Program-made: the position numbers and the translations under genes
The notes under the pieces: generated by a model
What the model was told of the DNA's origin: nothing
The model's input: the letters and a program-made list of their open reading frames with translations, nothing else
Databases searched by the model: none
In this document: positions 1,544 through 20,886 of the stretch, piece after piece
How positions within the stretch are numbered: the stretch's first letter is position 1
Layout: every line of letters begins with the position of its first letter
Origin: a virus
Virus record (IMG/VR): IMGVR_UViG_3300041585_000191
Span: 1 to 30,371 of that record
DNA: 30,371 bases
Reading direction: 5' to 3' (one strand)

Positions 1544-1966
1544 TCAGATGCAGATCCTGGCGCTCGCGCGAAACAGCGCGTCGATCTGCGATGTGGAAAG
1601 ATGGCATTGGCTGGCGAGAAGCAGGGCCAATCGACCTCGGCGATCAATGACGGAAGCGTATTCCCAAAGCTCGTTGGCTTCGCTTCCAGCCATCTGAATC
1701 GCGTCCCCCACATCTTGCAGAAGCGAGCGGCCTGGCCTGGCCCCGGGGCCTTGGAGCAAGGCAAGGCGGAGTTGGGCCAGGGTCACACATTGCGGCACCG
1801 TTTCTGCCGTCTCCGCTGGAGTGTAGGACGGCGGCGCCATCCCGCTGAGTGTATGGCGGGCCTGCTCGGCACTGCATGGGCCGATGGCAACCCCATCGGC
1901 TTTCCACATACCGCCGTCGTTTTGGGTAACAAGACGGCCAAAGCAGTCGGTGAAACTTGCCGTCAT
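1544..1966 (-). CDS. Tail-fibre-associated protein, XkdW-like C-terminus
   Basis: Protein of 140 residues downstream of the giant fibre gene, with its ATG overlapping the fibre stop codon (TGATG), so it is translationally coupled. The C-terminal half reads like the XkdW-type region often found at the end of phage tail-fibre loci: a TLAQLRLALLQ helix, a WEYASVIDR motif, then an STSQIDALF helix. The N-terminal half is variable and unassigned. By position it may be a fibre assembly chaperone or a small fibre accessory protein. Similarity to XkdW is my recognition of the motif pattern, not a search result. Confidence 0.6.
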   Translation of the reverse strand: MTASFTDCFGRLVTQNDGGMWKADGVAIGPCSAEQARHTLSGMAPPSYTPAETAETVPQCVTLAQLRLALLQGPGARPGRSLLQDVGDAIQMAGSEANELWEYASVIDRRGRLALLLASQCHLSTSQIDALFRASARICI

Positions 1967-4900
1967 CACAGGCTTCCGCGAACGACGGCCCCGATGGCGC
2001 CAGGGGTTCCTGCCGTGGTGGTCACTGTGACGGCACTGCTGCCGGCGGTTTTGCTGGTGGCGGGAATGGTCGGTGATGACAGCACAAGAAGATGCTGATA
2101 GCCGGAGCCGCCGCCGGCGCCGCCGATGCCGCCTTTGCCGGTGCCCAGGCCATTTCCGCCGTTACCACCGATACCGCCCGACGTGTCGATCGCGTTGGCG
2201 ATGGTGCTTCCAGTGAGCGCTTCGGCGACGATCCCGATAAAGCCGCCGCCACCGCCACCACCACCGCCGCCGCCGCCGGCATTGCCTGCGGCGGCATTTG
2301 CGCCATTGCCACCGTTGCCACCCTTGGCCTGGAAGACGGAGGCATTGGTGTTGCTGCCGCGGGCGATCGTGCGTGCGTTGATCAGCAAGGTGCCGCCGCC
2401 ATAACCGCCACCGCCGCCACCGCCGCCGGCGTTCGTGGCATCCCCGCCCCCGCCGCCGCCGCCGGCACCGCTGAGGCCGCCGGAAATACGGCTACCTGAG
2501 CCGGTGGTGGGATATGACGGAATGGCGGCGCCGAAGAAGAAGCCGCTTTGCAAGACGCCCGAGCCAGTGCTTCCGGCCGCTCCACCGGCTTGGCCGCCAC
2601 TGTTGCCGGCGCCTCCTCCACCAGCGGGACCGGCGTCCCCCCCCCAGGAGTTGATGGTCGAGACTGCCCCACCCGCACCACCTGCCGTGATACCACCTCC
2701 GCCCCCTGCGCTACCGGCCTGGAACGGGATCGGCAAGGCAGTTGCGTTGGCGGCAAAGCTGTTGGTAGTGCTTGAGACACCTGCGGTGCTGCCCGTGGCG
2801 GCATTGCCGTTATAGGTCGTAACGAAGATCGCTCCTGTCTGCGCAGCGGAGATATCAAGCGTGGTATTGATGTAAATACGAAATCCGTTGGCTGCGATGG
2901 CGCTGGTGCCAGACAATGTAAGTGAAGTGTAGTGCATGTCTCGCGTCAGCGTTGTGGTGCCGCTGCTGATCGTCACGGCCCCATCAGCGCCAGTACCGAA
3001 CAGGAGATTGGAGCTGCTCGCAGCGTTGGCGACACGGCTGTCGTTGCCGGATTGGCAGACCCATCGCGTGGATGCCGCTTGATACTGGAAGGCGACCTCG
3101 TTAAAGGCCGCTATGCTTGTGGGGGCGCCCAGAATGGCTTGGCCCGACGAGGGAAGAAAGTTGCACACAGCGACTGCGGTTGTCGATGCAATCAGCAGCC
3201 ATTGCCCGTTGCCCGGGTTTGCCGGCAAGGTGATCGTGCCGAATGCCAACGTGGCGGATGGCGTAAGCTGAAGTGTGGAGACACCGTTCGCAACCGTGAT
3301 CGAAAATCCGGTGGTGGGCGTCTGGATGGTGACGCTGGCATCGGCTAGGCCGCCTGCGAAGCTTGCCAGGCTGGATGCCTTCAGCGTGGTGAAGGCACCC
3401 GCGGCGGTAGTGCTGGTGCCTATTGGCGTTGCGTCGATATTGCCGCCCGCGGCCTGCAACTTGTTGATATACACCGTGCCGGTGCCCTGCGGGTTGATCT
3501 GGATCGAGACGTTGGTGTCCGCTCCGTTCACGCCCAGCACCACGTTCTGGCCACTGCTGCCGCCGGTGATGGACAGCGCGTTGACCGCCGTTGCATTCGG
3601 CACAATTGTCAACGCGTTGGTGCTGCCACCACTACCGGACTGGAAGTTGATCTGGCCAGTGCCGACGCTGCGTATGGTCAAGCCCTGATTGGTTTCACCG
3701 GTGACAGCAAGGATCGCCGGCGTGGCAGCGTTGCCCGGCGTGACGGCCAGCCTGGACAACGCTGCGACGCCAGAATCCTTGATTTGAAGAACCGTGCCAT
3801 TGCTGGTTCCAAGATTGAGCCCGGTGCCATCAGCGGCCGTGGCCGTCGTTGCCTTGATGGTGGTGAAGGCGCCGGTGGCTGGCGTGGAGGCACCAATAGC
3901 CATGTTGTCGATGCTGCCGCCGGTGGCCAAGAGTTTTGCGATTGCAACGCTGCCGGTGCCCTGCGGCGTGAGCTGGATCGAGACGTTGGCATCGGCGCCG
4001 TTGATTCCAAGCAACACGTTCTGGCCGGTGCTGCCGCCAGTGACAGACAGCGCATTCACCGCCGTTGCATTCGGCACAATTGTCAACGCGTTGGTGCTGC
4101 CACCACTACCGGACTGGAAGTTGATCTGGCCAGTGCCGACGCTGCGTATGGTCAAGCCCTGATTGGTTTCACCGGTGACGGCCAGGATCGCCGGCGTGGC
4201 AGCGTTCCCCGGCGTGACGGCCAGCCTGGACAACGCTGCGACGCCAGAATCCTTGATTTGTAGGACTGTGCCATTGCTGGTTCCAAGATTGAGCCCGGTG
4301 CCATCAGCCGCCGTGGCCGTCGTGGCCTTGATGGTGGTGAAGGCGCCGGTGGCTGGCGTGGAGGCGCCGATGGTGATGTTATCGATGCTGCCGCCGGTGG
4401 CCACGAGTTTGGCGACCGCCACGCTGCCAGTGCCCTGTGGCGTGAGCTGGATGGAGACGTTGGCATCGGCGCCGTTGATTCCAAGCACCACGTTCTGGCC
4501 GGTGCTACCGCCGGTGACAGACAGCGCATTCACCGCCGTTGCATTCGGCACGATGGTCAGCGCGTTGGTACTGCCACCACTACCGGACTGGAAGTTGATC
4601 TGGCCGGTGCCGGCGCTGCGGATAATCAAGCCCTGATTGGTTTCGCCGGTGATGGCCAGGATCGCCGGCGTGGCAGCGTTCCCTGGAGTAAGGGCGAGCC
4701 TGGACAGGGCAGCGACGCCAGAATCCTTGATTTGCAGAACGGTGCCGTTGCTGGTGCCAAGATTGAGCCCGGTGCCATCAGCGGCCGTGGCCGTCGTTGC
4801 CTTGATGGTGGTGAAGGTGCCGGTGGCTGGCGTGGAGGCACCGATGGCCATGTTGTCGATGCTGCCGCCAGTGGCCACGAGTTTGGCGATCGCCACGCTG

Positions 4901-7629
4901 CCGGTGCCCTGTGGCGAGAGCTGGATGGAGACGTTGGCATCGGCGCCGTTGATTCCAAGCACCACGTTCTGGCCGGCGCTGCCGCCAGTGACAGACAGCG
5001 CATTCACCGCCGTTGCATTCGGCACGATGGTCAGCGCGTTGGTGCCGCCGCCGCTGCCGGACTGGAAGTTGATCTGGCCGGTGCCGGCGCTGCGGATGTT
5101 CAACCCCTGATTCGTTTCGCCCGTGATTGCGAGAATGGCAGGGGTTCCGGCATTGCCCGGCGTGACGACAAGTTTCGACAGGGCGGCCGAGCCATTGTCT
5201 TTGACCTGGATGACGATGCCATTGCTGGTACCAAGGTTCAGCCCGGTGCTGTCAGTGGCTGACAGCGTTGTTGCGCGCACCGCTCCGGTGCCGGCCGGGC
5301 TGAGCACAAGGTCTTGGTTGGCGTTGCTGCCGCTCGTGGTGATCCTGGCGGTCGATGTGCCGTTGGTCCATGCAATCGCCTGTGCGGTGGCCATGGTCAG
5401 GGCCTGGCCATCCTGAAAGCTGGCAGTGGTGGTGCGCAGACCGTGAAGCCAGGTGAGATTGATCTCGATCGGCGCATAGGGGATCTGCGAGGCGAGACCG
5501 GTGAGATCGCCATTGATATAAATAGCACGGCCAATACCGCCCACAACGCAATTCGGCTCATAGAGCGAGGCGTTGTAGAAGCGGGCTGGGATTCCGGTGC
5601 TGTTCGTTGCGGCGGACTGGCCAAAGAGTTCGGCGAACAGCAGGTTCTTGCCTTCGCCGGATTGGCCAAGGCCGGTGGCTTCAGGTGAATAATTGACGAT
5701 GCCGGTAATCTGTTGAGGCCCTGCGACATTGTTCACTGGGTCGTTGCGATAGGCCTTCCAGCCCATGTCAAGACCACGGTTGACGACGTTGTATTCCTCG
5801 ACGACATGGGTCCAGTTGTGGCTGGTGTCCTGCGGGGTGATGCCGACGGTCCACCTGACCAGTTCGGCGCCCATGTTGGCGCCGGTGACGGCGCTTGGAT
5901 TGTAGATGCCTATCAGGGTCTGGGCGTTGTCGACGCTGTCCGCCCCGCCGGCTTGGCTGAAATACTGAAACTTCGCCGCCTGCGCGCAATGCGGTCCGTT
6001 GTTGTAGACGGTGGTGAGCGGGCCAATCACGCCGGCACTTGGAACCGACCCGGTGAAATTCCACTGAAACGCGCCGTTGCCAGGATTGCCGGCGGTCCAG
6101 GTATTTGAAAATATACTTGGAGCACCGTTTCCGGTGATGGCGACGGTGTTGAAGCGGGCATTGCCTGCCTTGTCGATGCTCGCGACGTCGGTCCATCCAG
6201 AATTGCCGACTGTGACGACCCGCAGCGCCTTGCCGCTGATCGCCACATCCTTGATGAAGATGCCGGTGTTCCACTGGGAGATCCCGGTTTGAGCACCAGT
6301 GGCGTCTGTGCTGGGGCCGCCATTGACGACGATTGCAGCGGTGCTCTGCTGGTTGCCACCAGCGATGATGTTGACGCCGATCTTGCTGTTGGACTGATCC
6401 ACCAGCGGCTGCGCCTGGCCGAAGTTCTCGACGGTTATTTCGGCGCCCAATGCATATGCGTCCGAATATGGCGACACGGTTGCGATGGGGTTGATGGCCC
6501 AGATACGCCCGGATGTTGTGCCCGATTGGGTCTGGGCCTGAAACTCGCCGGCGACAGCATCGCGGAGAATGGCACCGCTGGATGAATCCCCGGTGACGAT
6601 CCGGGCATAGATGGCATTCTTTTCGTAGCTTGTGGGGGAGTTCGTGGCGCCGACGAAGTTGGAGACGAAAAGACTGCTGGAGCCCTGCGGTTCGGCGGAG
6701 AATTTTGCGATGGCAAGGCCGATATTGCCGCTCACACTATCGGTGAGGCCAAGGATCTGGCCTGGGCCCGAGACAGTTGCACCAGCCTGGATCAACCAGC
6801 CATTGCCGCTGATGGTGTAGACTGTGCCTGCGAGATAAAGGTTTCCGGCGGGTATGACGATCAATGCGCCGCCACGGTTCTGGGCTGCCTGCTGTGCGCG
6901 GGCAAGTGCGGGGGTATCGTCTGTCACACCGTCAAGAACGGCACCGAAGTCTCGAACGTTGAGCGTATCCTGGGCGCGGTCAGCCAGGCTGCGCGCCGTG
7001 GTGCTGCCAGTGGACAGCGTGGAGGCCACCGAAAGATCCGTGACGGCGCCTGTTTTACCCGCGACGGATTGCACGGAAAAACTGGACAAGCCAGTGATAT
7101 CGGCGGTTGTCAGCGTGGCGCTACCGCCGGTGACCTGGCCCTTCGCATTCACAGTGACCTTGACGAAGTTTCCAGGTGTGGTGATGGCGGGAAGCACTGT
7201 GACGATAGCGCCGTTGCTGGCGGACGTGTTGGCGCCGACGACATCACCGGTGAACGTGACGGGCTGGAAGAGTTTGGCCTGAACGAAGGCGGTTGTAGCA
7301 ATGGCTGCGCTGTTGTCACCGCCAGCGGGGGTTGGTGCGGTTGGCGATCCGGTGAAGGCGGGTGACGCCAGCGGTGCCACCACCAGGGTATCGGCTGCGA
7401 GAGCGCCATTGTTCAGCTTCAGACCCATGCCGACGCCAACTGGTTCGGGAGGACCAGGATTGGTGCTGACGCGGCCAAGCAATGCGCCCTGGGCGAGGGT
7501 CAGTTTGGGCTGCAGGCCATTGTGAAGCGTTGTGATGGAGGCAGTGCGCGACACGCCGGACTGGTCGAGCATAACCTTGTCGGCGTCGTGGACGACGGGT
7601 GCTTCGGGTAGTTGGGGAAGGCTGGGCAT
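1966..7629 (-). CDS. Giant tail fibre with pectate-lyase-like domain, tandem repeats and Gly-rich tip
   Basis: Predicted receptor-binding fibre of 1887 residues. Domains in order: an N-terminal attachment module (1-80, LPQLPEAP...GLQP...LLGR) shared with the preceding spike; a collar-like beta region (about 90-220); a pectate-lyase-like segment beginning NVRDFGAVLDGVTDDT near residue 226; a long beta-rich region; four 158-residue tandem repeats (about 790-1420); and a glycine-rich tip (about 1590-1880) with GGGGGGG runs. I chose the ATG at 7629 because GGGGAG lies seven bases upstream; the open frame continues to 7815, but that part overlaps the end of the previous gene in another frame. Such fibres bind surface glycans or proteins. 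Its great length fits a side or long tail fibre. Confidence 0.85.
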   Translation of the reverse strand: MPSLPQLPEAPVVHDADKVMLDQSGVSRTASITTLHNGLQPKLTLAQGALLGRVSTNPGPPEPVGVGMGLKLNNGALAADTLVVAPLASPAFTGSPTAPTPAGGDNSAAIATTAFVQAKLFQPVTFTGDVVGANTSASNGAIVTVLPAITTPGNFVKVTVNAKGQVTGGSATLTTADITGLSSFSVQSVAGKTGAVTDLSVASTLSTGSTTARSLADRAQDTLNVRDFGAVLDGVTDDTPALARAQQAAQNRGGALIVIPAGNLYLAGTVYTISGNGWLIQAGATVSGPGQILGLTDSVSGNIGLAIAKFSAEPQGSSSLFVSNFVGATNSPTSYEKNAIYARIVTGDSSSGAILRDAVAGEFQAQTQSGTTSGRIWAINPIATVSPYSDAYALGAEITVENFGQAQPLVDQSNSKIGVNIIAGGNQQSTAAIVVNGGPSTDATGAQTGISQWNTGIFIKDVAISGKALRVVTVGNSGWTDVASIDKAGNARFNTVAITGNGAPSIFSNTWTAGNPGNGAFQWNFTGSVPSAGVIGPLTTVYNNGPHCAQAAKFQYFSQAGGADSVDNAQTLIGIYNPSAVTGANMGAELVRWTVGITPQDTSHNWTHVVEEYNVVNRGLDMGWKAYRNDPVNNVAGPQQITGIVNYSPEATGLGQSGEGKNLLFAELFGQSAATNSTGIPARFYNASLYEPNCVVGGIGRAIYINGDLTGLASQIPYAPIEINLTWLHGLRTTTASFQDGQALTMATAQAIAWTNGTSTARITTSGSNANQDLVLSPAGTGAVRATTLSATDSTGLNLGTSNGIVIQVKDNGSAALSKLVVTPGNAGTPAILAITGETNQGLNIRSAGTGQINFQSGSGGGTNALTIVPNATAVNALSVTGGSAGQNVVLGINGADANVSIQLSPQGTGSVAIAKLVATGGSIDNMAIGASTPATGTFTTIKATTATAADGTGLNLGTSNGTVLQIKDSGVAALSRLALTPGNAATPAILAITGETNQGLIIRSAGTGQINFQSGSGGSTNALTIVPNATAVNALSVTGGSTGQNVVLGINGADANVSIQLTPQGTGSVAVAKLVATGGSIDNITIGASTPATGAFTTIKATTATAADGTGLNLGTSNGTVLQIKDSGVAALSRLAVTPGNAATPAILAVTGETNQGLTIRSVGTGQINFQSGSGGSTNALTIVPNATAVNALSVTGGSTGQNVLLGINGADANVSIQLTPQGTGSVAIAKLLATGGSIDNMAIGASTPATGAFTTIKATTATAADGTGLNLGTSNGTVLQIKDSGVAALSRLAVTPGNAATPAILAVTGETNQGLTIRSVGTGQINFQSGSGGSTNALTIVPNATAVNALSITGGSSGQNVVLGVNGADTNVSIQINPQGTGTVYINKLQAAGGNIDATPIGTSTTAAGAFTTLKASSLASFAGGLADASVTIQTPTTGFSITVANGVSTLQLTPSATLAFGTITLPANPGNGQWLLIASTTAVAVCNFLPSSGQAILGAPTSIAAFNEVAFQYQAASTRWVCQSGNDSRVANAASSSNLLFGTGADGAVTISSGTTTLTRDMHYTSLTLSGTSAIAANGFRIYINTTLDISAAQTGAIFVTTYNGNAATGSTAGVSSTTNSFAANATALPIPFQAGSAGGGGGITAGGAGGAVSTINSWGGDAGPAGGGGAGNSGGQAGGAAGSTGSGVLQSGFFFGAAIPSYPTTGSGSRISGGLSGAGGGGGGGDATNAGGGGGGGGYGGGTLLINARTIARGSNTNASVFQAKGGNGGNGANAAAGNAGGGGGGGGGGGGFIGIVAEALTGSTIANAIDTSGGIGGNGGNGLGTGKGGIGGAGGGSGYQHLLVLSSPTIPATSKTAGSSAVTVTTTAGTPGAIGAVVRGSL
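2637..2645 (-). repeat. G9 homopolymer inside the fibre gene
   Basis: Nine consecutive C on the plus strand, that is G9 in the coding sense, reading Trp-Gly-Gly-Asp near residue 1661 of the giant fibre. It lies at the start of the glycine-rich tip. Tracts of this kind can slip during replication and shift the frame. Confidence 0.9.
3367..5262 (-). repeat. Four tandem 474-bp repeats (158-aa units) in the fibre gene
   Basis: Four head-to-tail units with an exact 474-base period, roughly 4789-5262, 4315-4788, 3841-4314 and 3367-3840. The marker TGLNLGTSNG recurs in each unit, as do SGSGG-TNALTIVPNATAVNALS and NVSIQ--PQGTGSV; the GASTPATGAFTT marker is degenerate in the last unit. The inner units are nearly identical at the DNA level; for example 3598-3720 and 4072-4194 match almost base for base. 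The outermost units have drifted (for example NMAIGAS becomes ATPIGTS). The units are in frame, so gain or loss of one would change fibre length by 158 residues without breaking the gene. Confidence 0.95.
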
Positions 7630-7705
7630 GCATGTACTCCCCGCCCCGTTTTCGGGGGTTGGTGATCGAAATGACTTGGCCGGATGGATGTTTGCTGCTG
7701 GCAGG

Positions 7706-10264
7706 TCAGCAGATCGCGAACCACCCTGTGTTGCCGGTGCCGCTGCGCTTGACGTAGAAACTGGTGCCAATGCCGCCGTTGAGATTGCGGTATGTCGAGC
7801 CTGGCGGCCCGGCAACCACAGCCTCGGGCGCGTTGCGGCCGATCAGTTCGAGGCAGCCGGTGGTTTCGGAATCCGATGTCAGCCGGACTCGGCCAACCCC
7901 TGCCGGGCGAAGCTGGACATCGGCGTTGCCGATGCTGCGCAGCAGGGCACCGCCGGTGGCATCAGGCAGGACGTAGTCGCCGCTGGCGAACATGGTTGCG
8001 CGCCAGGTGTTGAAGGTGCCGGTCCACTCGACGTCGGCATTGGTGGCCACGGTCATGTCGGTACCGGTCCAGTTCTCCTGGACCGGGCTCGATCCGGATC
8101 TGGCGAAGCGGACGCTGGTGTTGCAGCGGACGCGGAGGCGTCGTTCGTCTGGGATGGGGACACCGGCATAGGCCGTGGCGGTGGCCCCTGTGCCGTCGCC
8201 GGTGATGCCAACGGCGAGTGTGGTGCCGGCGTTGCCGTAGCCGGTCCCGGGCGTTGAGATCACGATACCGATGATGGTGCCATTGCTGATCACCGCGCGC
8301 GCTGTGGCGCCGGTGCCCGGGCCTGCGACCGAGACACCGGCGGTGGTGTAGTTGCTGCCGCCATTGGTCACACGTGCAAACGTGACCTGGCCAAAGCAGA
8401 TAGTCTGGTAGCTGGTCAGCATCGACTGCACGCCCGATGACGCGGAGGTGACCATCACGCTGTCGGCGATATCGGGCACGATAATGGTTTGCAGCGCGTT
8501 GTAGGTTGTCGGATTGGCAAAGAAGCGCTGGGTGAAGTTCCAACGGTTGCCTTCGATGATGATCTGGTCAGTATTCGCCCACAGGCAATTGGCGAGCAGG
8601 GCGCCGTTGCTGCCCATGAAGTGATTGCGCGCGACCAGGACGCCCTGCGGGCCGTCGCGAAGCAGAATGCCGGACGCGGCAGTACCGTTCATGCCGATCC
8701 AGTTGCCGAGGAGCGCGAGGCCACTGGCGGCAATGCCAAAATTAACACCGTTGCCGTCGGTTTCGACGTTGTTGACGAGGATGGCCCAGGACGCTGCATC
8801 CTGGATTGTGTTGCCTTCGATGCGGATAGCGGTGCCGCCACCGCAGTTGATGCCGAAGGAGTGGCCTGTGATGTGGTTTGCGCTGATCTCCGAATAGATC
8901 GAACCACCGCTGTCGATGCCGTAAAGTCCTGCACCGGACAGCATGTTCGCGGTAACACGCGAATAGGATATGTTGGCCAGAATACCGGCGCCGGAGTTTG
9001 CGACTGTGCCGTTGTTCGCGCAGAGATTGCCGTGCACGAGCAGGTTTCGGCCGGAGACGGCAATGCCATAGACGCTATTGTCGTGGCAGAGGTTGCCGAC
9101 AACCATCGTTGACTGCGCGTCGGGGTTGGCGTGGCCCCAGATGGGCGTTGCCGTGTTGGTGGCATTGAAGTTGCCGACCGTGATGCCGCGCAGGTTGTTC
9201 CAGCAGCGATTGCCGATCACCTGCGACAGCCGCAACTTCTTGGCGAAGCTGCTGTCGTTATAATCGAGGTTCAGGCCGTATTGGCCGTTGTCATGCGCGC
9301 GGCACCCTTCCACGAGCAGGCCTGCGCAGGCCTGCGACCAAAGGCCGTGGAGCTGGTTGCCGGAAAATTCGCAATCGCGCACGGCGTGCTGGCAAATCGA
9401 TGGATCGCTGGCCAGGAAGACGAGTCCGCTGCCGAGTGTGGCGCCTGCCGCATTGAGGAAGCTGCATCGTTGCCAATCGGATTGCAGGCAGGCGCTGGCC
9501 ACGAGCACCGCCCAGTTGTCGGTGGCTATGGCTGAGCGATTGGCATCGAACACGATGCCATCGGCACGAAAGCCGGTGGCCTGGATGGCGATCCAGGCGC
9601 TGCCGGTGGTCTGTCGGGCACGGCGCAGAATCGATTGGCCGGGCACGCCGATCAGCGTGGCGTTGGCGGTGCTGACTGTGAGCTGGCCATTGACGATGTA
9701 GGTTTTCGAGCCGAGGCGGATGGGGCGGTTGCTGGCGAGGCCGGCCACGAGCGCGTTGGTGTCGTCGGTGACGCCATCGCCGATCGCGCCGAAGGCTTCG
9801 ATGGGCAGTGCGTCCGCCATCTGGTCGGCGATTTTGCGGGCGTTGGCCAGCCCGGTGGGGGTGCTGGCGAGCTGTGAGACGTCGAGATTGGTGAGCGCGG
9901 AGAGGCCCGACATGAATTGTGTGTAGGAGGCCGCCTTGTTGGCTCCCGCCTGCGCCATGGCGACGAGGTCTGTGCCTGACGGCGATGTGGCTGCTGGCAG
10001 GCCTGCCACGTTGAAGGGCGTGGCAGCGGCAGATAGTGTGTTGCCGGTGAGTGCAAGGTTGGCACCGATGACGATCGCCTCGGGAGCGCCGGTGCCGGCG
10101 GTGGCGCGTCCCAGAAGCTGACTGGTGGCCAAGATCAGGGTTGGCTGCAGCCCGGCAGTTAACTGAAGGCGGCTGGCGGCACGTAGGATTCCAGCCTGGC
10201 TGATGGGCAGAAGATCCGAATCCGTGGTGGCTGATGCCACGGGAAGCTGTGCAATCGTTGTCAT
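7706..10264 (-). CDS. Tail spike/fibre with right-handed beta-helix
   Basis: Predicted receptor-binding spike of 852 residues. An N-terminal module (1-80, QLPVASATTDSDLLPISQAG...GLQP...LLGR) is followed by a second, degenerate copy (about 85-135, GLPAATSPSGTDLVAMAQAG). Then comes the pectin-lyase-like opening IEAFGAIGDGVTDDTNAL near 155. The middle is a parallel beta-helix rich in short turns such as 'ITGHSFGINCGG' and 'VSGRNLLVHGN'. A GxGY repeat region follows near 630-690 and a beta-rich C-terminus ends the protein. GGAGG lies eight bases before the ATG. Spikes of this fold often bind or cleave polysaccharide; no catalytic residues could be assigned. Confidence 0.85.
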   Translation of the reverse strand: MTTIAQLPVASATTDSDLLPISQAGILRAASRLQLTAGLQPTLILATSQLLGRATAGTGAPEAIVIGANLALTGNTLSAAATPFNVAGLPAATSPSGTDLVAMAQAGANKAASYTQFMSGLSALTNLDVSQLASTPTGLANARKIADQMADALPIEAFGAIGDGVTDDTNALVAGLASNRPIRLGSKTYIVNGQLTVSTANATLIGVPGQSILRRARQTTGSAWIAIQATGFRADGIVFDANRSAIATDNWAVLVASACLQSDWQRCSFLNAAGATLGSGLVFLASDPSICQHAVRDCEFSGNQLHGLWSQACAGLLVEGCRAHDNGQYGLNLDYNDSSFAKKLRLSQVIGNRCWNNLRGITVGNFNATNTATPIWGHANPDAQSTMVVGNLCHDNSVYGIAVSGRNLLVHGNLCANNGTVANSGAGILANISYSRVTANMLSGAGLYGIDSGGSIYSEISANHITGHSFGINCGGGTAIRIEGNTIQDAASWAILVNNVETDGNGVNFGIAASGLALLGNWIGMNGTAASGILLRDGPQGVLVARNHFMGSNGALLANCLWANTDQIIIEGNRWNFTQRFFANPTTYNALQTIIVPDIADSVMVTSASSGVQSMLTSYQTICFGQVTFARVTNGGSNYTTAGVSVAGPGTGATARAVISNGTIIGIVISTPGTGYGNAGTTLAVGITGDGTGATATAYAGVPIPDERRLRVRCNTSVRFARSGSSPVQENWTGTDMTVATNADVEWTGTFNTWRATMFASGDYVLPDATGGALLRSIGNADVQLRPAGVGRVRLTSDSETTGCLELIGRNAPEAVVAGPPGSTYRNLNGGIGTSFYVKRSGTGNTGWFAIC

Positions 10265-16936: not shown

Positions 16937-17977
16937 TCAACCTCCGCCGTGTTGGGTGCCGGGCCAGGTGACGCCGAGGCGCGGGTCGAAGCCGGTGGTG
17001 CCGGATGGGGGGCGGCCGGCACTGCGGGAAAGGCTTGTAGAGATCCAGTGGCCGAGCCGAGTGCCGTCGAGGAAGACGTCTCCACCTGTCGGGCCTGTGG
17101 TGGATGATGAAGATTGCGGGGCGGCTGGTGGCAGGGCCACCGGGGGGGCGGCCTGGGATGGGGACGGCATCGGGGCGGCGATGGATTTTGCCGGTGCACT
17201 GGGGATGCGTGGCTGCTGTGTCACGTGCGGCCGTGCTGTCGGCGGAGGAGGGGTGGGCGCCGATTGTATCCCCCGGACAGGCTGCAAAGGGTTATGCAGC
17301 TCACCTGTCGCGGCATCGCGCGGTGTTGGTGCAGAGACGGATATCGACAGCGCCGCGGACGGCGTTTGCACAGTTTGTGCCGCTTCCTGCCGCCTGGGCG
17401 ATGCAGCGCTTGGGGTCAGTGGTGCGGCTGTTGGGGGTGCTGACACAGAGCTTGGCGAGAGAGGCAAAATCGCTGGCTGATCGGATCGTTGCGCCGGGTT
17501 CTCCGCCGTGACCATGACGCGCTCAGGTGACGCGATACGCAATTCGCGCGATGCTGCCTCAGACTTTGGTGTCAACAGTGGTGTGGTGTGCGGCATCGGG
17601 ATGGAGCGCGGGGCGGCCTCGGTTTGCACAGACGGTGTCTGAGCGCGATGCTGCGCAGGGGCAGTTTCAGACGTTCGTGTCGCAAGCGGGATCGGCTGTG
17701 GCGCATCGGTGATTTGGTGAGTGGCTTGGGGCACAGATGGCGGGGCAGGCGTCTCGGTTGCAGATTGGGGCTTTTGTTCCGGCGGGCGCGTTGGCTGGGC
17801 CTGGCCCAAGGCTGCGGCGGTGGTGCTGGATGCCACTGTCTGAAGTTGGCGAAGGTTTGCGGTGGATGCCGCAATGGCGCGGTCGAGCTTGGCCAGGTCG
17901 TCACGGATGGCAGCGACGCCGGCACTGACGCCGTTGTCCAGCGCCAGTCGGATGCCGATCACATAGGCGTCTTCCAT
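16937..17977 (-). CDS. Candidate tape measure protein, short and proline-rich
   Basis: Protein of 346 residues. The N-terminus (about 5-50) is a helix of the tape-measure kind (IRLALDNGVSAGVAAIRDDL, then AIAASTANLRQLQ). Residues about 60-290 are low-complexity Pro/Ala/Thr/Ser sequence. The C-terminus ends with 'GDVFLDGTRLGHWIS', 'SRSAGRPPSGTTGFDPRLG', a motif I associate with the C-termini of small tape-measure-like proteins of alphaproteobacterial phages. It lies where the tape measure belongs, after the chaperone and before the GpU/hub genes. It is far shorter than usual (often above 600 residues), and no membrane segment is visible. ATG at 17977 overlaps the upstream stop (TGATG). Confidence 0.5.
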   Translation of the reverse strand: MEDAYVIGIRLALDNGVSAGVAAIRDDLAKLDRAIAASTANLRQLQTVASSTTAAALGQAQPTRPPEQKPQSATETPAPPSVPQATHQITDAPQPIPLATRTSETAPAQHRAQTPSVQTEAAPRSIPMPHTTPLLTPKSEAASRELRIASPERVMVTAENPAQRSDQPAILPLSPSSVSAPPTAAPLTPSAASPRRQEAAQTVQTPSAALSISVSAPTPRDAATGELHNPLQPVRGIQSAPTPPPPTARPHVTQQPRIPSAPAKSIAAPMPSPSQAAPPVALPPAAPQSSSSTTGPTGGDVFLDGTRLGHWISTSLSRSAGRPPSGTTGFDPRLGVTWPGTQHGGG

Positions 17978-18336
17978 CAACGCGGCTCCAAAGCGCGTTC
18001 GACAACGTCTGCGATGTTGCGGACGATGGCAGGGCCGGACTGGATGGCGAGTGGGACGAAGGTGGGGCGTGGCGGCATTGCGGGCGTCCCATATTCCTGA
18101 TGGCGCGCGACGTCGGACGTGCTGCCAATGCAGGCCGTAGCCTGGTCGACCTCAAAGCCGATGCTGTCCTGGAGCGCACCGGTCTGACGCCATGGATGAT
18201 CGTGCGGGCCATCTGGTGGGGTGGCGAGTGCCTGGCGGATATCGTTCGCCAGGGTCTCTGCCGACAACGCAAGTGCATCGGCGGCGATACCGTCGAAATC
18301 CTGATCGAGGCGGGCAAAGAGGGCGTAGAGGTTCAC
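17977..18336 (-). CDS. HK97 gp10-like tail completion protein
   Basis: Protein of 119 residues resembling HK97 gp10-type minor tail proteins: a long N-terminal helix, 'RQTGALQDSIGFEV', 'CIGSTSDVARHQEYGTPAMPPRPTFVPLA' (the V-G-S...A-x-x-x-E-Y-G-T...R-P-F-x-P pattern), and a C-terminal helix. The start is GTG at 18336, overlapping the stop of the frameshifted chaperone extension (GTGA), and AAGG lies upstream. In most phages this gene is next to the head-tail connectors; here it sits between the chaperone and the tape measure. Confidence 0.7.
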   Translation of the reverse strand: MNLYALFARLDQDFDGIAADALALSAETLANDIRQALATPPDGPHDHPWRQTGALQDSIGFEVDQATACIGSTSDVARHQEYGTPAMPPRPTFVPLAIQSGPAIVRNIADVVERALEPR

Positions 18337-18844
18337 GGCCTTGCCTTCCAGCTATGGGTTTGGAAATCGAACTCGCCGCCGTCCAGACGGCCTATGGCGA
18401 CGATCCAGGCCAGTCGGTCTTCGGGGGGCAGCGAGAAGGCGACGTCAAACGGCACCCCGTTCCGGCACAGATAGAGACTGTCGACCAGATCGGGGTGCCG
18501 GCTCAGTTTCCCGCGTGGTGCGCCACGTCGATCGGGGCCTGTGGGGCAAGCGCCTCGGCGATGGCGGCGATGCCGGAATCGCCGAGCCTTGAGACGAGGC
18601 TTTCAATCTGGGCTTCGCTGGTGGGTGGCGGAATGGGAATGTCGTCGATGGCGGCAACGCTCGTGGCCAGGGTCGCCATGCCGAGCCAGAGGTGGTTCTG
18701 CGACAAAGTGGGGCCGGCGGCCTTGAACAGACGCAGCTTGTCGAGCGCGTTGAGGCTGCGAATGGTAAGTGTGCGGCCTTCGCTGTCCTGGACCTGTTGG
18801 GTGGACTGGACGGCAGCGAGGTGGCGGGCTGTGGGGGTTTCCAT
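18333..18844 (-). CDS. Tail assembly chaperone, -1 frameshift fusion product
   Basis: Translational fusion made when ribosomes slip back one base on GGGAAAC at 18512-18506 (minus strand), just before the stop of the shorter chaperone. The added 57 residues are encoded from 18506 down to the TGA at 18333 and have no start codon or ribosome site of their own. They read like the T half of G/GT chaperones: 'DLVDSLYLCRNGVPFDVA', 'LPPEDRLAWIVAIGRLDGG', 'FDFQTHSW'. The fusion product is about 170 residues. In lambda and many other phages both forms are needed to load tape measure and tube protein during tail assembly. The stop overlaps the GTG of the next gene. Confidence 0.85.
18503..18844 (-). CDS. 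Tail assembly chaperone, short form (G-like)
   Basis: Unshifted product of 113 residues: 'VQSTQQVQDSEGRTLTIRSL', a helical segment (LNALDKLRLFKAAGP), and 'IPIPPPTSEAQIESLVSRL', ending AHHAGN. The helical acidic make-up and location after the tube gene match phage G-type chaperones. I chose ATG at 18844 with AAAGG about eight bases upstream rather than GTG at 18853, which lies against that site. The C-terminus holds the slippery heptamer that gives the longer form. Confidence 0.82.
   Translation of the reverse strand: METPTARHLAAVQSTQQVQDSEGRTLTIRSLNALDKLRLFKAAGPTLSQNHLWLGMATLATSVAAIDDIPIPPPTSEAQIESLVSRLGDSGIAAIAEALAPQAPIDVAHHAGN
18506..18512 (-). other. Slippery heptamer GGGAAAC for -1 ribosomal frameshifting
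   Basis: On the minus strand the sequence reads GCG GGA AAC TGA in the chaperone frame, so the zero-frame phasing is G GGA AAC, a perfect X-XXY-YYZ slippery site followed at once by the stop codon. A -1 slip continues as CTG AGC CGG and stays open for 57 codons. The same kind of site (G GGA AAG) drives the lambda G/GT switch. Confidence 0.9.
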
Positions 18845-18876: not shown

Positions 18877-19305
18877 TCAGACGCGTTTACGGCGGGATGC
18901 GAAGAAGTCCAGCCGCTGCTTGACGCTCTGATCGCCGCGCCACAGGCCGGCCTGAGTAAGTTTGAAGACCACCTGGTCGTATTGGTAGGTGCTGGTGCTG
19001 CAGTCGACTTCGCTGACGTACTGATAGAGTGTGCCGGTTGGGACGGCGCTGCCGGAGACGTAGGCCTGTTCGATGCGAGCGATGAAGTCGTCGACGGCGG
19101 AGCTGCCGCGTTCGAGTTCGAAATGGCCGTCCCAGCCTTTGGGGAGTTCGGCCGCGAGTTGCGAGCCGTCGATGCGATCAACACGGATGGGAGCGGTGAG
19201 CTGGCGGCTTTCGAAGCCTGTGACATGGGTGAGGTCGAGGCGGCCGAACGGGCCCATGACGACGAGCTGGCAGTCGCGGCCGACGGAAAAGGCGGTGCTG
19301 GGCAT
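18877..19305 (-). CDS. Tail tube protein
   Basis: Small beta-rich protein of 142 residues directly after the sheath gene, in the place of the major tail tube (Mu gpM, P2 FII). Residues such as 'FGRLDLTHVTGFESRQLT' and 'GWDGHFELERGSSAVDDFI' and the C-terminal KLTQAGLWRGDQ strand fit the tube fold. AAGGAG lies eight bases upstream of the ATG. Length is normal for a tube protein. The tube is the inner conduit through which DNA passes. Confidence 0.85.
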   Translation of the reverse strand: MPSTAFSVGRDCQLVVMGPFGRLDLTHVTGFESRQLTAPIRVDRIDGSQLAAELPKGWDGHFELERGSSAVDDFIARIEQAYVSGSAVPTGTLYQYVSEVDCSTSTYQYDQVVFKLTQAGLWRGDQSVKQRLDFFASRRKRV

Positions 19306-19317
19306 GGGGTGGTCTCC

Positions 19318-20886
19318 TTATGCGGACAGCGCGCCGGGGGCGCCTGGGAGGGTTTGACGGCTGACCTGCACGGTCTGGCCGCCTTCCATGTTGACGATGA
19401 ACTTCTCGTTGATCGCCTGGTACTGGATCTGCGCGTCCGACTGGACATAGCCGAGGCCGGTACGAATAAGCGGATTGTTGCTTATGTCACACAGGACGTT
19501 GAAGGGCAGGGTTCCGTCCGTGCTGCCGAGCAGGCCTTGGCTGAGCATGCCCTGCAGGAAGCTCAGTTGCGTGGCGCGGATGCGGCGGAACAGCGCCTGG
19601 TTGATGACCTGGCCGACATATTGGCCCATGCCGGCTGCCAGGGTGGCGGCGATGAAGTTGGTGAGGCGGGTGTAGTTGTCGCCGTTGGTCGCCGCGTTCG
19701 AACTGGCGTTGTGGCCGCCGCGGACGCCCCAGAAGGCCCCGGCCGGTTGGGGGTTGGCGATGACGTCGATGCCGGCGCCGATGAGAATACCGAGTTCAGC
19801 AGCCGAGTATCCGGTGTTCTGGCTGCTGCCGGGCGTGCCGGATTTCTGGGTGCCGACCACACCGTAGAGCGGCTTGTTGAGGCTGGACTGTTCGGGCGAC
19901 AGGTTGGCCAGGCGGCCGGCTGCGAAGCCCTGGGGACTGACGAGGCGGAGGACTGCGTTGACCTGGTCGTTCCACCAGATCCAGTCACCAAACATCATTT
20001 TGGCAGCGTAGGTGTCCAGGCCCGCCGCCTGTTTGGTGGCGACGGCGTTGCTGATCGTGTCTGAGGTGGGGCCGGTGAGGATCATATAGACGCCTTCGGC
20101 CAGACCGAAGCCGGCCTGGGTGGTCCATTGCGAGCTGTCATCGGAGTCGGCCAGCACACCGATCGAGCAGCCCTGGCCACGCAGGGCATACATGCCGCGG
20201 CGGGGGATGGTATCGGCGCCGATGAGGCTGGCTGTGGTGACGGCGGCACCGTCAGACCCGGCAGTGCCGATTGCGAAGCTGGCGGAAAGCGGGGTTGGTG
20301 TGGCGGAGGTGCCACCGGCATTGGCCAGCACAATCTGGCTGGGGCCACGCTGGCTACCGTTTCCGGTGTTGATGGCAGCAGCAAGGTTGATCCAGAACTG
20401 CGTACCGCTGCCGGTGATGTTGTCGAACACCTCGGGCTGTAGGCCCGGCAATGCCACGGTAAAGCGGAAGCTTGCGGCTTTGCTGCCTGAAGCCAGCGTG
20501 ATGGCGATCTGATTGCCTGAACTGCCGGTGTAGAGGGCGGTGAGTGCGAAGGCGGTGCCTGGGAGCGTGAGGCTGGCTGCAGTGTCGGTGGTATCGGTTA
20601 CTCGGACACAGCGGAAGTTCGACGCACCCTGCTGGACGGCGGTGGCGACCGCGGTGCCGAGGTCGTATTTGCGCGGCATCACGGCGCCGAAGCTGCGGGC
20701 GTAGTCTGCCATATTGGATACGATGGTAGGCTGGCCGACCGGCCCCCAGCTTGCGGTGCCGACCATGCCCACGACGTTGGTGGGCACGCCGTTCAGGACG
20801 AGGTTCTGCGGCGGCACGATCTGGACGTAGAGATCGGGCACGACGAGGGCGGTGGTGTTGATATTGCCCTGTTGGACGATTGGCAT
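19318..20886 (-). CDS. Contractile tail sheath protein
   Basis: Sheath protein of 522 residues, Mu gpL/XkdK-like. It starts MPIVQQGNINTTALVVPDLY and contains 'TASWGPVGQPTIVSNMADY' typical of the N-terminal region, a variable outer domain (about 75-220), and the conserved C-terminal domain with 'NDQVNAVLRLVSPQGFAAGR', 'FWGVRGGHNAS' and 'NDYTRLTNFI'-like text (here DNYTRLTNFIAATL). GGAGG lies eight bases before the ATG. Its presence with tube, chaperone and baseplate genes shows a contractile tail. Confidence 0.93.
   Translation of the reverse strand: MPIVQQGNINTTALVVPDLYVQIVPPQNLVLNGVPTNVVGMVGTASWGPVGQPTIVSNMADYARSFGAVMPRKYDLGTAVATAVQQGASNFRCVRVTDTTDTAASLTLPGTAFALTALYTGSSGNQIAITLASGSKAASFRFTVALPGLQPEVFDNITGSGTQFWINLAAAINTGNGSQRGPSQIVLANAGGTSATPTPLSASFAIGTAGSDGAAVTTASLIGADTIPRRGMYALRGQGCSIGVLADSDDSSQWTTQAGFGLAEGVYMILTGPTSDTISNAVATKQAAGLDTYAAKMMFGDWIWWNDQVNAVLRLVSPQGFAAGRLANLSPEQSSLNKPLYGVVGTQKSGTPGSSQNTGYSAAELGILIGAGIDVIANPQPAGAFWGVRGGHNASSNAATNGDNYTRLTNFIAATLAAGMGQYVGQVINQALFRRIRATQLSFLQGMLSQGLLGSTDGTLPFNVLCDISNNPLIRTGLGYVQSDAQIQYQAINEKFIVNMEGGQTVQVSRQTLPGAPGALSA

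Follow-up and report, generated by a model that had tools for sequence, protein, structure and literature searches.

In phage lambda, the tail assembly chaperone gene follows the gene of the tail tube, displays an X XXY YYZ heptamer at its end and is continued by a -1 extension devoid of a start codon, with the tape measure gene located downstream (PMC5009743, PMC7618472). A heptamer followed by a stem-loop is also found, in other genes, at the bacterial -1 sites of dnaX and of IS elements (PMC5009743). The heptamers G_GGA_AAC and A_AAA_AAC, both of which occur in the family described here, are present in the g-t sites of the haloarchaeal siphoviruses HCTV-1 and HCTV-2 (PMC5009743); these are archaeal siphoviruses and the likeness is drawn on the heptamers alone. 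The locus analysed here is part of a viral record of 30,371 bases (IMGVR_UViG_3300041585_000191), hereafter called the window. It shares with lambda gpG/gpGT a 0-frame gene after the tube gene, the heptamer at its end, a -1 extension without start and a likely tape measure gene downstream. In contrast to lambda, the tail is contractile, the heptamer is GGGAAAC or AAAAAAC instead of GGGAAAG, the stop codon stands directly after it, a strongly conserved stem lies on its 3' side, a neck-like gene usually precedes the tape measure gene, and the sequence of the T segment is unrelated to any library family. The locus very probably relies on programmed -1 ribosomal frameshifting, as known from the G/GT pair of lambda.

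The PHROGs matches in the window include terminase, portal, major head, sheath, baseplate, fibre and endolysin genes, which points to a contractile-tailed phage. All features of the locus are encoded on the minus strand. The tail sheath gene (19318..20886; phrog_23, E=8e-44) is followed by a candidate tail tube gene (18877..19305; phrog_12993), which is found upstream of G/T in nearly all loci. Next comes the 0-frame ORF of the G-like tail assembly chaperone (18503..18844; 113 codons from the ATG at 18844-18842), the 3' end of which reads GC G GGA AAC TGA. The initial annotation was right on both sequence and coordinates of this end, as the slippery heptamer (18506..18512) abuts the TGA at 18505-18503. 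The T-like segment in the -1 frame (18333..18506) was confirmed as 57 sense codons followed by a TGA (18335-18333). As had been claimed, it has no start of its own, the first ATG, GTG or TTG being codon 18, and its end overlaps the GTG of the next gene (18334..18336) in a shared GTGA.

Neither the open -1 frame nor the presence of GGGAAAC was retained as evidence in itself, both being at chance level. Three copies of GGGAAAC were observed in the window for 3.2 expected, and 55% of the minus-strand positions are open for at least 57 codons in this GC-rich DNA. The remnant of a decayed gene or an accidentally open frame could be argued for from this openness, which is uninformative by itself. 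Conservation is the deciding evidence. With the -1 peptide as query, 481 relatives were obtained from viral contigs and 84 from bacterial genomes, 80 being kept in each case; most of these genomes belong to Acetobacteraceae and Rhodospirillales, and some to Planctomycetes, Burkholderiales and Rhizobiales. Homologues of the 57-residue segment, which had been proposed as a test of the prediction, thus exist in hundreds of phages and prophages. A set of 167 loci, including a few contigs that were fetched twice, was gathered via homology to one or the other half, mostly by protein similarity to the T segment. A canonical X XXY YYZ heptamer was detected at the identical position in 162 of them. GGGAAAC, carried by most loci including the window, and AAAAAAC replace each other between loci, which indicates that slipperiness is kept while the encoded amino acids (G-N vs K-N) are not. 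The 0-frame stop usually follows the heptamer directly; in about 20 loci it is located 3-18 nt later or more, and the heptamer is retained.

A profile of the -1 segment was later run on two samples of genomes. In the family to which Acidisphaera rubrifaciens belongs (Acetobacteraceae), 81 of the 200 sampled genomes were positive; in the phylum that includes Limnoglobus, 1 of 199 was positive, namely Limnoglobus itself. The locus is present twice on one chromosome of Limnoglobus roseus (Planctomycetes), the two copies (L141 and L161) being divergent. As a second test, 40 of the more divergent profile matches were fetched (one of them, L217, repeating L087), and in 39 of the 40 both the position of the heptamer and the frame of G were as predicted. 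The remaining one (L179) had already been counted as L163, the locus of Endobacter. Across the relatives, it is only in the -1 reading of the segment that synonymous changes exceed or about equal nonsynonymous changes. Judged from these substitutions, the -1 frame is under selection at the protein level. The hundreds of relatives, the synonymous excess in the -1 frame and the frameshift site kept throughout refute the decayed fragment or chance frame, which retains a practically negligible probability.

A few relatives deviate from this scheme. The canonical heptamer is missing in L123, L160 and L163, and the stem in L167 and L168. In L160 (4636-5171), T has its own ATG overlapping the stop codon of G (GGAATGACC), and in L163 (4613-5171) it has an ATG inside the end of G. 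Near position 4989 of L123, GCGCATTTTCC stands in place of the heptamer, with both G and T intact. L153 displays GGGGGAA before a TAG, a motif that was reported for phage frameshifts (PMC10885494). The Glomeribacter prophage L168 shows AAAGAAG where its sister L167 has AAAAAAG. The presence of a dedicated ATG for T in two relatives supports T as a real module. The variants indicate that T is important and coupled to G, as a rule via frameshifting.

The own ATG of T in L160 and L163 also fits an explanation without any frameshift, according to which T is a separate small protein produced by termination and reinitiation at the stop codon of G; a CTG overlapping the TGA can be imagined as a weak start. 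However, in the window and in most relatives, no ATG, GTG or TTG precedes the conserved core or stands among its first codons, and the heptamer is kept instead. Moreover, where the 0-frame stop sits further downstream, the CTG is changed to CTC or CTT while the heptamer stays. Reinitiation is therefore considered unlikely, and programmed frameshifting is clearly preferred.

The initial annotation had suggested looking for an RNA structure downstream of the heptamer, and a stem-loop with compensatory changes was indeed identified. The candidate stimulator is a 9-bp stem formed by the 5' arm GGCACCCCG (18491..18499) and the 3' arm CGGGGTGCC (18451..18459), 6 nt on the 3' side of the heptamer, or 5 nt if the outer C-G pair is counted, giving 9-10 bp. 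In the window, the hairpin folds with -35.4 kcal/mol (z -4.8). Synonymous codon choice is almost fixed in the stem arms, with CCC at codon 5 reaching 0.91 (0.22 expected), GGG at codon 17 0.94 (0.22 expected) and GTG at codon 18 0.93 (0.50 expected), while synonymous conservation in codons 19-56 is mostly near expectation. Overlap with the G frame does not explain this synonymous conservation, as the stretch lies past the 0-frame stop. In 66 sequences, 94.9% of the cells were paired with 11 double changes, and none of 500 shuffles reached the score; a later set of 39 sequences gave 92% paired cells, 8 double changes and none of 2000 shuffles, these shuffle counts not being probabilities since some of the sequences are related. 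Compensatory changes include a C-G to A-U replacement in Rugamonas (L154) and two C-G to G-C flips in Alsobacter L162 and L200. In L194 and L199, the stem sequence is kept with a shift of one base relative to the codon frame of the other loci, so that the RNA rather than the peptide is conserved there. In L162 and L164, the minimum-energy fold obtained by computation is not the consensus stem; in L162, it is another hairpin. When the window was searched with a model of the stem element, a single match was obtained, on the coding strand (98.7 bits), and the element has no match in Rfam. A continuation of the 9-bp stem into an inner helix was also considered and is not claimed, as 73% of the cells are paired in the whole 20-pair structure and several inner pairs are unpaired in most sequences. 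The stem is stable and conserved as RNA a few nucleotides 3' of the heptamer, at roughly the distance at which ribosomal stimulators are expected (PMC5009743), and the hairpin is probably what drives slippage.

The same spacing bears on a further explanation, in which the RNA polymerase slips on an A-run and mRNAs with one additional base or two missing bases join the frames. The AAAAAAC sites could support such transcriptional slippage, but GGGAAAC, which is used in the window and in most loci, has no long homopolymer, and a conserved stem near the position of ribosomal stimulators (PMC5009743) is not in favour of it either. Transcriptional slippage is regarded as very improbable in comparison with slippage of the ribosome.

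The 0-frame product of the window belongs to phrog_20383 (E=1e-19), a family filed as function unknown, and has no match in Pfam. All 36 aligned relatives match the same family, and three of them also match phrog_508 (tail assembly chaperone), with E down to 1e-3. The AF2 model of G (pLDDT 90) has as best PDB match the tail assembly chaperone of HK97 (2ob9; probability 0.87, E 0.068, TM-score 0.46, 18% identity). Among the viral models of BFVD, it matched the chaperone of phage Gemini (probability 1.00, E 5e-3) and also that of phage Finch. The 0-frame product thus modestly resembles tail chaperones in its predicted fold. The T segment is predicted by AF2 as a compact helical domain (pLDDT 91). 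It showed no match in Pfam and PHROGs, where weak matches were obtained for a few relatives only, and the fold search of its model against viral models gave no significant match; no known T domain was matched by sequence or fold. Searching PDB by sequence with G or T delivered nothing meaningful.

Downstream of T, the gene that starts with the shared GTG (17977..18336) encodes an HK97-gp10-like protein, annotated as tail completion or Neck1 protein (phrog_5, E=9e-9). It is followed by a likely short tape measure gene (16937..17977, ATG at 17977-17975). This candidate has no profile match of its own and was assigned by synteny only; its ends are weakly similar to genes of relatives, one of these genes corresponding in position to a 595-aa ORF of L141. 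Tape measure matches (phrog_28) were obtained at the corresponding place in distant relatives. The common order is tube, G/T, neck-like gene and tape measure, G/T being located between tube and tape measure with the neck-like gene usually intervening. In L154 and L156, a frame of about 600 codons directly follows T, with a tape measure match in L154. The candidate of the window is about 346 aa long, with a high content of P, A, S and T; the ORFs at this place in distant relatives mostly have 540-800 aa, and the shorter length would predict a shorter tail here. In L087 (4098-4631) and L086 (4888-5706), an inserted restriction endonuclease gene (opposite strand) and an inserted BRO-family gene separate the neck-like gene from the tape measure candidate. 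Elsewhere in the window, a tandem array (3477-5126; 474-bp unit, 3.5 copies, 92% identity) sits within a tail-side ORF of 1949 codons (1966-7815, minus strand).

The reading of the locus as a G/GT tail chaperone is supported by the homologues, the RNA stem, the synteny and the predicted fold of G, from which we infer the frameshift, its efficiency and the ratio of its products. Most ribosomes would terminate at the TGA after GGGAAAC, giving the 113-aa chaperone G, while a minority that the hairpin 5-6 nt downstream holds back would slip from GGA-AAC to GGG-AAA and read 57 further codons, giving a G-T fusion of about 170 aa. As in lambda, G would coat the tape measure protein and T would bring the tube subunit. 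Several observations count against this reading, namely the AAC codon in the A-site of the heptamer, which is another codon than in GGGAAAG of lambda, the modest fold match of G and the unmatched T, the neck-like gene before the tape measure in most loci, and the few relatives without heptamer or stem or, as L162 and L164, with another computed fold.

The expectation that gene callers leave the -1 segment as a gap held in part. It is a gap in three RefSeq plasmid records, but in the record of the Komagataeibacter phage phiKX1, a separate CDS annotated as hypothetical begins within the segment. All phages of the phiKX1 study, phiKX1 included, were classed as contractile-tailed particles, and a frameshift is not mentioned (PMC8566455). 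Among the papers in the library that was searched, none on this family or its frameshift was found. While the lambda-type G/GT kind is already known, the lineage is widespread and unannotated, with a well-conserved 3' stem. A broader proposal is given about even chances: the stem-loop would represent a distinct frameshift-stimulating RNA family of a large lineage of contractile prophages, kept as RNA despite sliding relative to the codons, and T would be an autonomous tail-assembly factor for which an ATG replaces the frameshift in some lineages, so that a fixed G:GT ratio would not be universal.

With this analysis, a function is proposed for phrog_20383, and a missing protein segment is recovered in the prophages of about 40% of the sampled Acetobacteraceae genomes (81/200). 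The G/T loci also offer a natural series for the question of how the frameshift ratio sets tail assembly, as they vary in the type of heptamer (two types), in the distance of the stop codon (0, 3 or 18 nt), in the presence or absence of the stem, and in the occurrence of a T with its own start.
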